64,000 bases of DNA, from contig BAXE01000013.1 in the NCBI GenBank assembly GCA_001310415.1, positions 62,001-126,000 of the forward strand, given 5' to 3'. The DNA comes from Enterovibrio sp. JCM 19048. Lineage in GTDB: Bacteria > Pseudomonadota > Gammaproteobacteria > Enterobacterales > Vibrionaceae. The position numbers and the translations under genes are program-made. This document shows, piece by piece, positions 27,586-29,806 of the stretch. Numbering within the stretch: the stretch's first letter is position 1; every line of letters begins with the position of its first letter. The notes under the pieces are model-generated. The model was given only the letters and a program-made list of their open reading frames with translations. It did not search any database and had not been told where the DNA came from.

Positions 27586-27896
27586 GCGTAGCCTGAAAAG
27601 ATGGCGCTTCCGTTTTTTTCTATTCAAATTCCGAATTATTCGTAAAAAATACAGATTTTTCCGCCTTCATTAATTTCCTTTCATATCAACCAGATAAGAT
27701 GGATTTTTGCGTGTGGATAATCCTGCTTATCCCATCTAATTTTAAAATTTTGTGAAATTTAAAATTTCCGTGTGAGGTCTGATTAGGCGGTTGGACAAGT
27801 GTCTGTACCTGAATTTGTCGGAGCTCTGAAATTACTCTTTGAGCGCCCACAATGGTTATTAAGATTCTCACCAAATTGGATATTGGAGAACGGAAC
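27586..27896 (+). other. AT-rich leader before bufA
   Basis: About 310 bases without a gene. The region is strongly AT-rich at 27600-27760 and should hold the bufferin promoter. I could not identify a convincing sigma-factor or metal-regulator site by eye. Confidence 0.5.
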
Positions 27897-28181
27897 ATGA
27901 ACAAGACTGAAAAAGGCGCCACTTTTGCTTCTCTCGCTTTGGCTGTTGCAATGAGCTCTGCGGCGTTTGCTGCTGAAGCCCCAGCCGGTAGCTCTGGCGC
28001 GGCTATTGGTGCAGGCGACAAAGTACACTGCTACGGCGTTCATTCTTGCAAAGGTAACTCCGACTGCAAAACCGCTGAAAACGCCTGTAAAGGTCAAAAC
28101 GTTTGTGCTGGCCATGGCTTTAAAGCGATGGACGCAAAAGCATGCCTTGATGACGGTGGCGTGATCGGCGACATCAAATAA
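27897..28181 (+). CDS. bufA: bufferin precursor (BufA2-like, six cysteines)
   Basis: An intact 94-residue peptide with a Sec signal (MNKTEKGATFASLALAVA...AFA) and a short Gly/Ala/Ser linker. The core holds six cysteines: CYGVHSC, SDC, NAC, NVC and KAC. This spacing matches bufferin precursors, in which the MNIO enzyme turns cysteines into copper-binding thiooxazole groups; the mature peptide acts in the periplasm as a copper buffer. GGAG lies eight bases before the ATG. The gene is followed at once by bufB and bufC, its known maturation partners. Assignment to the A2 subtype is from memory of the CYGV-x-SCKG pattern and is less certain than the family. Confidence 0.85.
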   Translation: MNKTEKGATFASLALAVAMSSAAFAAEAPAGSSGAAIGAGDKVHCYGVHSCKGNSDCKTAENACKGQNVCAGHGFKAMDAKACLDDGGVIGDIK

Positions 28182-28197
28182 GTAAAGGAGTACAGAG

Positions 28198-29036
28198 ATG
28201 ACGTTAAGTTTTGGTCTGGGGCTTCGCACTCAGCATTACAATGATTTCCTGACCGCACCACAGCCCGTTGACTGGCTTGAGGTCATTTCTGACAACTATA
28301 TGGTCGATGGCGGTAAGCATTGACCATGCTTGACCGCATTCGCGCTGACTACCCAATGACCATGCACGGTGTTTCGATGTCGATTGGTTCAATCAATGGG
28401 TTGGACGAAGACTACCTGAAGAAGCTCAAAAAGCTGGAACAACGCATCGAACCTATGTGGGTGTCTGATCACCTTTGCTGGACGGGTTGCCACGGTAAAA
28501 AGCTGCACGATTTAATGCCACTGCCCTTTACCCGTGAAGCGATTGACGTGGTGGTTCGCAATGTCCAGCAGGCTCAGGAAGTCTTGCAACGCCCACTGGT
28601 GTTGGAAAACGTCTCCAGTTATGTCGAATTCACCAGCTCGGAGATGACCGAATGGGAGTTTCTTTCTGAGGTGTGTGAAAGGGCAGGAAGCGAGTTACTG
28701 TTGGATATCAACAATATCTATGTGAGTGCGGTCAATCATGGTTTCAAAGCCGAGGATTTTATCAATGGTGTGCCTGCTGACCGTGTCCGTCAGTTCCATT
28801 TGGCGGGTCACCAGAATAATGGGGATTACTTGATTGATACCCATGACCACCCTGTATGTGGCGATGTGTGGGATTTGTATACCTTTGCGCTGAAACGCTT
28901 TGGTGAAACCCCGACCATGATAGAGCGCGACGCCAATATTCCCCCATTGGAAGAACTGCTTGCTGAGCTGGATCAGGCAAGACACCTGGCGTACAGCGTG
29001 TTCCCCAAAAACGTCCCACTCGCAAAAGGTGCCTAA
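28198..29036 (+). CDS. bufB: DUF692 (MNIO) multinuclear iron enzyme of the bufferin operon, one frame break
   Basis: A TIM-barrel, iron-dependent oxidative enzyme that modifies cysteines of BufA. Family blocks are [94 protein letters not shown] and [10 protein letters not shown]. These contain the His, Asp, Asn and Glu metal ligands. AAAGGAG precedes ATG 28198. The frame breaks near 28317, where DGGK should run to [12 protein letters not shown]. Its stop overlaps the bufC start (TAATG). Confidence 0.92.
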
Positions 29037-29806
29037 TGAAGCTGCAGGATATTCAAAGCGACTTTCAGCGCATCGTGCTGGAAAAAGAGTGCTCAGACGC
29101 GAGTTGGGTGAGCGGGAAAGCATCGAACCTTTCGACGAAAGACAGGCTCAGGATCTATCACAATGCCTATCGTGTGCGTTTGGTAGAAGTGATGGAAGAC
29201 ACCTTTGAGCACACCAAGGTGTACCTGGGCGATGAGTGGTTTGACCGTCTGGCAAATGCTTATGTGCAATCCCATCCCTCAAGCTTTAACAACATCGGGC
29301 TCTATGGCGCTGAGTTTGGTGCTTTTCTGGCAAAACAACTACCAGATGACGGCGATGTTGCCGAGCTTGCGACTATGGACTGGGTGCTTCGCCGCGCATT
29401 TGATGGGGCAGATTCTGACGTGATGACGTTGGAGGATTTGCAGCAGCTCGCCATGCAATCACCGGAGGGTTGCTGTCTGAACTTTGTGCCGACGCTTACC
29501 CGTGTGACGCATCTTTTCAATACCCTGGATATCTGGCATGCGATCGATCAGGACAATACACCTCCTGCCGCCGAGAGATTCTCTGTGCCAGTGGACGTGT
29601 TGGTCTGGCGTAAAGGACACTCACCGCACTTTCGCAGCATCTCGCCTATTGAATCAGCGGCGATTGATTGCGTGTTAGCGGGGCAAACCTTAGATCACAT
29701 CGGCGCAAGCCTGCAAAACCAGTTTCCGGAGGCTGATATCGCCACCGAGTTTGGTGTGATGATCCAGCGCTGGATAGGTGATGAGGTGTTAGCGCTCGAC
29801 AATTAA
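29036..29806 (+). CDS. bufC: DUF2063 bufferin partner protein
   Basis: An intact protein of 256 residues. The N-terminal DUF2063 domain (LQDIQSDFQRIVLE; RLRIYHNAYRVRLVEVMEDTFEHTKVYLGDEWF) is the usual partner of DUF692 enzymes and resembles substrate-presenting domains. The C-terminal half contains the extended helical or beta region usual for BufC. It is coupled to bufB by a one-base overlap. No DoxX-type bufD, ECF sigma factor or anti-sigma factor follows, so this is a minimal three-gene version of the operon. Confidence 0.9.
   Translation: MKLQDIQSDFQRIVLEKECSDASWVSGKASNLSTKDRLRIYHNAYRVRLVEVMEDTFEHTKVYLGDEWFDRLANAYVQSHPSSFNNIGLYGAEFGAFLAKQLPDDGDVAELATMDWVLRRAFDGADSDVMTLEDLQQLAMQSPEGCCLNFVPTLTRVTHLFNTLDIWHAIDQDNTPPAAERFSVPVDVLVWRKGHSPHFRSISPIESAAIDCVLAGQTLDHIGASLQNQFPEADIATEFGVMIQRWIGDEVLALDN

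Follow-up and report, generated by a model that had tools for sequence, protein, structure and literature searches.

A Buf2-type bufferin operon in an Enterovibrio genome and a predicted ECF regulon joining it to periplasmic methionine repair

We have analyzed a stretch of 64,000 nucleotides of Enterovibrio sp. JCM 19048 (the window, on contig C13), a genome that is a member of the Enterovibrio/Grimontia group, and found that it contains a Buf2-type bufferin operon, bufA2-bufB-bufC, which by its profile matches and gene order is ordinary for its kind. What is new and useful is the prediction of an ECF regulon in which Buf2 would be joined to periplasmic methionine repair, together with an ECF-like promoter predicted before bufA2, GAAA[T/G]-N17-GGTCT. 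With good confidence we read the locus as a Buf2 operon for a copper-holding BufA2, the break in its bufB as an assembly error, and its transcription as probably driven in trans by an ECF sigma factor, for which the one linked to a DUF3379 gene is the best candidate. The features are the following:

27754..27780, + strand: predicted promoter of the ECF type, GAAAT-N17-GGTCT, lying 116 bases upstream of the bufA start codon
27897..28181, + strand: bufA2, Buf2 bufferin precursor, 94 amino acids, six Cys, likely Sec signal peptide
28198..28323, + strand: 5' part of bufB (DUF692/MNIO gene), closed by a TGA stop; matches PF05114 positions 2-37 (E 2.5e-9) and NF050167 MNIO_BufB (E 9.4e-12)
28320..29036, + strand: remaining and longer part of bufB, read in a different frame; matches PF05114 positions 41-261 (E 2.1e-96) and NF050167 MNIO_BufB (327 bits, cut-off 310)
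29036..29806, + strand: bufC, DUF2063 partner protein, 256 amino acids; its start overlaps the bufB stop
Contig C22, L001:1136-3414: Buf1 operon of the same genome, with DUF2282 precursor, MNIO, DUF2063 and DoxX genes in this order

The initial annotation had claimed a bufferin operon, and the profile matches of BufA2, BufB and BufC bear this out and place it in the Buf2 family. Specifically, the family search that had been suggested as a check of the BufA subtype assigned the precursor to the NCBIfam equivalog model NF050166 Cu_RiPP_BufA2 (99.3 bits, cut-off 60, E 1.1e-28), while a Pfam search of the same protein matched no family at E up to 1. BufA is without the DUF2282 domain with four Cys that is the trait of Buf1, and the sole DUF2282 match of the genome is located on contig C22. 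BufC matches DUF2063 (PF09836, E 1.1e-19, 71 bits, cut-off 27.2). A BufA2 match was found in 12 of 18 genus genomes (the window's own and 11 others), and the order bufA2-bufB-bufC was kept in all of the 11 others; these E-values and the conserved gene order are more than chance. The operon is flanked by a transglutaminase-like gene upstream and by a GFA-domain gene downstream.

The precursor had been described as a signal-bearing peptide with six regularly spaced cysteines. By eye, its N-terminus is indeed signal-peptide-like, with a basic start, a hydrophobic stretch and an AFA/AE end, and the six Cys are there, at residues 45, 51, 57, 64, 70 and 83, in identical places in the five relatives (of 11) whose protein was extracted. 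The regular spacing holds for the first five only, which are 5 or 6 residues apart; the sixth comes after 12. With its three Cys-Lys pairs the peptide is compatible with the precursor group called 'Cys-Lys' (PMC12668002; papers are cited here from excerpts), although the BufB Asp reported in that paper is replaced by Ala here. As to the DUF692 and DUF2063 genes said to follow bufA, the second is confirmed by the BufC match and the first is present but not intact, with bufB lying in two frames.

Starting from the ATG at 28198, bufB runs for 41 codons and ends in a TGA at 28321-28323; comparison with a relative located the change of frame between 28317 and 28320, so that the break is at about 28,318. 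In all of the 11 other genus genomes with BufA2, bufB is one open frame of 280-312 codons. Besides, similar breaks are common in the window's own assembly. The genes hemC, uvrD, lysA and ggt, picked for a frame test after being noticed in the ORF list, were each split over two frames (4/4 tested; for example hemC at L016:18987-19933 and uvrD at L016:6213-8398). Where proteins of relatives matched the assembly, 8 of the 15 places were broken, three intact and four mixed, these 15 including a few likely antisense matches, and in an 11-kb stretch of contig C8 the broken places were seven out of eight, one of the seven probably antisense. The completeness of the assembly was 87.5%, against 98-100% for 17 genus relatives. 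Since bufB is intact in 11 other genomes and its own assembly has many similar breaks, an assembly or sequencing error rather than gene loss is the most likely cause, as judged from one assembly.

Other causes of the break were considered. The sequence as given, which stops early and offers no single open frame, could belong to a true and recent pseudogene, in a strain making unmodified BufA2 or none, and the second bufferin operon present elsewhere in the genome, Buf1, might cover the function. We consider this improbable: the bufB of that Buf1 operon also seems to shift frame near its start and is open in 15/15 other genomes, the four genes of the frame test are split too, and the long piece of bufB shows no sign of relaxed selection. 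Actually, when this long piece was compared with 11 relatives, pN was 0.15-0.19 with pS saturated, a purifying type of substitution, and these pN values are within or slightly above the range found between more distant relatives (0.14-0.17). The same values led us to set aside a long-term decay of the gene. Programmed frameshifting was also set aside, because all of the 11 relatives have a single bufB frame. In the columns that are invariant in 31 relatives, no H, D or E of BufB was changed; three other invariant columns, located away from the break, differ from the 31 relatives and were counted against our reading. Frame breaks are thus frequent in this assembly, housekeeping genes included, and other 'broken' or 'split' genes of the window need care; its 'broken' or 'minimal' clusters should not be taken as biology.

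One residue of BufB deserves a separate mention. The long piece (28320-29036) reads ERDA, with Ala after the ERD motif, where 11/11 genus relatives have Asp; in a wider set, ERDD appears in 68 of 80 relatives and Ala in the remaining 12. The Asp at this place has been tied to recognition of the substrate Lys (PMC12668002), and the Ala was likewise counted against our reading.

Our analysis also agrees with the observation that no DoxX or sigma gene is found beside the bufA2 operon. A whole-genome search gave one DoxX match, on contig C22, and none of the 14 Sigma70_r4_2 matches of the genome is located on C13 or C22. The lack of both genes is normal for Buf2. DoxX adjoins the MNIO gene of Buf1 in 16/16 genus genomes with Buf1 and adjoins Buf2 in 0/12. 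In the wider set of 80 loci, a DoxX match was found in 37, and L018-L037, 20 loci of which several had short flanks, gave none, these counts coming from a profile grown from one seed without a Pfam check. Nine of the 80 are Enterovibrio/Grimontia records, which are not independent of the genus set because at least some are the same genomes. According to the excerpts of a published survey, sigma and NrsF genes occur with Buf1 clusters and are lacking from those of Buf2 (PMC12452194). Given that a three-gene bufferin operon without a regulator of its own is already known in Caulobacter, the missing genes are no sign of unusual control. The proposal that control 'may therefore differ' is then not implied by an absence that is the norm for Buf2, and it holds in one respect relative to Caulobacter, that NrsF (PF06532) was found in 0/18 genus genomes by a search that was positive in its Caulobacter control.

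The alignment of the 400 bases upstream of bufA2 in the 12 genus genomes revealed only one strongly conserved block, GAAAT (GAAAG in one genome) followed by 17 bases and GGTCT, present in 12/12. Outside the genus the motif is uncommon. Among the 76 Buf2 loci that were scanned (80 minus L020, L025, L085 and L093, which had no BufA start assigned), it was found at nine, eight of the genus plus L023, a gammaproteobacterial genome, and it was absent at 67, which include most of the non-genus loci.

The same kind of boxes pointed to a possible regulator. Three genomes had 50 Sigma70_r4_2 matches, 30 of them with loci that were scanned, and boxes of the GGTCT type appeared among these only at an ECF gene that precedes a DUF3379 gene, and did so in each of the three genomes. 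This ECF (at least 70% identity) is found in 16 of the 18 genus genomes, the copy of the window's genome being in two pieces, and the boxes are at the same place at the start of the gene in 15 of the 16. Because its own gene starts with the boxes found before bufA2, we infer that the DUF3379-linked ECF is the best candidate driver of the bufA2 operon. The two genomes without it say little, as they are small (2.1 and 2.6 Mb) and also without both bufferins. We would give some room, tentatively, to the alternative that the boxes are real and read by another ECF, the copy at the DUF3379-linked gene being a coding coincidence. This copy falls inside the longest reading frame, within its first 20 codons, and the conservation of third positions, good at the boxes and weaker over most of the spacer, is good also outside the boxes, in codons 23-30; besides, just 30 of the 50 sigma matches had loci to scan. 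The constancy of the place in 15 of 16 genomes speaks against a coincidence, as do two distant genomes with 46% identical ECFs, in which one-mismatch forms of the boxes lie 7-8 bases before an ATG (by eye), a layout with a single occurrence in 1.77 Mb of further DNA, at a locus that had itself been retrieved with this motif. Of the two genomes, G018 is that of L023, where the motif precedes bufA2; G020 (locus L028) is without the motif before bufA2, which speaks against a general link between this ECF and Buf2.

It seems unlikely to us that a single ECF controls Buf1 and Buf2 alike in this genome. Both promoters have GAAA, a 17-base spacer and a TC at matching positions of the second box, and in Caulobacter SigF does drive both operons (PMC3511200, PMC8224329). 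Against this, the Buf1 promoters, with GAAAG or GAAAT followed by TTTT, have TATCC or TATCT as second box in 16/16 cases and the Buf2 promoters GGTCT in 12/12. Fifteen of the 18 genus genomes have a single copy of the Buf1 form each (14 at Buf1, one elsewhere), and none was seen at an ECF gene in the 30 loci scanned. The initial annotation had also raised the case of a distant bufD and regulator under the same control. Half of it was found, namely a distant Buf1 operon with DoxX and a predicted regulator in trans; as to common control, the differing second box of the Buf1 promoter speaks against it.

Returning to the DUF3379-linked ECF as the candidate, its partner looks like an anti-sigma family. 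In three lineages (L187, L262, L263) the gene for DUF3379 is preceded by that of an ECF sigma factor, and the DUF3379 proteins have weak, sub-cut-off matches to anti-sigma profiles. The pattern HxxxCxxC, a trait of zinc-binding anti-sigma factors, is found near the start of two distant DUF3379 proteins and is lacking in the genus copy. A literature search on DUF3379 found no paper naming it; in another, on MNIO, Vibrio, sigma factor and methionine sulfoxide, the link was absent among the matches listed, and a third, on bufferins in Enterovibrio, found nothing relevant.

To delimit the regulon, strict match counts were rejected as a genome-wide finder, since over 18 genomes the promoter pattern gave 62 matches and its reversed control 40; we relied instead on whether the boxes recur upstream of the same genes and on a check in the own genome. 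In 30 motif loci that were fetched, the boxes were found before bufA2 (three), msrB (three), a gene for a MASE10-HD protein (three, one of them, L159, with a visible start 317 bases away and a protein named by likeness to L175), a DUF1223 gene (two) and msrP (one), and the remaining 18 had none of these genes. The MASE10-HD membrane protein behind the same boxes in relatives (L155:6-1460, L175:1-1449) is, we assume, possibly a c-di-GMP phosphodiesterase. In the own genome, of which 2.1 Mb were scanned, there were 11 exact motifs against about eight expected from simple base counting, four of them at bufA2, msrP, the DUF1223 gene and the DUF3379-linked ECF gene. The exact boxes start 80 bases before msrP and 91 before the DUF1223 gene (estimated starts), this msrP orthologue having 77-90% identity and being itself split in the assembly. 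As a background, one of 2424 ORF starts had an exact match within 200 bases (possibly one of msrP or DUF1223) and 29 had a match with at most one mismatch. In the same 2.1 Mb, no boxes were found before the own relatives of msrB (43% identity) and MASE10-HD (48%). The product of msrP acts in periplasmic methionine sulfoxide repair. These recurrences suggest that Buf2 is probably controlled by an oxidative or metal envelope-stress regulon like that of SigF in Caulobacter.

The mechanism that we propose combines both lines of evidence, with family membership coming from sequence and the modification and copper binding of BufA2 inferred from relatives. BufA2 would be made with a Sec signal and handled by BufC; BufB, an MNIO iron enzyme, would oxidise its Cys, probably to thiooxazoles, and the peptide would then be exported to the periplasm, holding excess copper. 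The conversion of Cys to thiooxazole, periplasmic copper sequestration and ECF control have been described in relatives (PMC12452194, PMC12668002, PMC8224329, PMC3511200, PMC7907618; see also PMC12538549). Transcription would probably start from the GAAA[T/G]-N17-GGTCT promoter by an ECF in trans, whose predicted regulon would include msrP and the DUF1223 gene in the own genome and msrB and the MASE10-HD gene in relatives. With such a shared regulon, oxidative or metal stress would induce Buf2 and the repair of periplasmic proteins at the same time.

A wider proposal, which could equally well prove right or wrong, is that an undescribed ECF with DUF3379 as an unrecognised anti-sigma family acts in these marine bacteria as master regulator of the periplasmic response to metal and oxidation stress, switching on Buf2, MsrP, MsrB, DUF1223 and MASE10-HD, while Buf1 answers another signal. 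If true, one more kind of ECF/anti-sigma pair would link a copper-buffering peptide with the repair of methionine in the periplasm. The excerpted bufferin literature does not state how Buf2 is switched on outside Caulobacter, and the shared promoter makes its control directly testable. The operon is then one more Buf2 cluster of a known kind, and the regulator a testable lead.

Among the known systems, the Caulobacter operon CC2907-CC2905, whose product CC2907 we take to be a Buf2 precursor, resembles the one described here in consisting of precursor, DUF692 and DUF2063 genes, with neither DoxX nor a sigma gene among them. SigF controls this three-gene operon CC2907-CC2906-CC2905 (CCNA_03001-02999) in trans, apart from sigF and DoxX, and also controls a four-gene DUF2282/DUF692/DUF2063/DoxX operon and yedY/msrP (PMC3511200, PMC8224329), CC2907 being labelled DUF2282 in the first of these papers (PMC3511200). 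The Caulobacter SigF regulon and the one predicted here thus have in common an ECF in trans and the inclusion of msrP/yedY. They differ in that SigF works with NrsF, whereas in the genus, where NrsF is absent, the candidate pair is ECF-DUF3379.

Like the Buf2 (BUF_6/12Cys) bufferins, the operon has a precursor with six Cys and a likely signal peptide, an MNIO gene (here in two frames) and a DUF2063 partner; their clusters are in the excerpts without sigma or NrsF genes (PMC12452194), and nothing distinct was found here except the Ala replacing the usual Asp after the ERD motif of BufB. The Buf1 operon of the own genome has, like the bufA2 operon, an MNIO gene and a DUF2063 partner in the same order; it differs in its DUF2282 precursor, its DoxX gene and its second promoter box. 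The precursor of Haemophilus influenzae is presumably the one named EGKCG-type. Its repeats have been described (PMC12668002), and the ECF RpoE2 of this microbe offers a parallel, driving an MNIO/DUF2063/DoxX cluster along with methionine sulfoxide reductases; RpoE2 belongs to another ECF group and its anti-sigma is HrsE, of 67 residues, instead of DUF3379 (PMC7907618). The GIG operon of Legionella and its homologues again include relatives with and without the DoxX gene, the three-gene homologue H3 being described in the excerpts as lacking lpg2105 (DoxX); the GIG promoter responds to copper and gold, and RpoS has been suggested there as an influence (PMC5413113).
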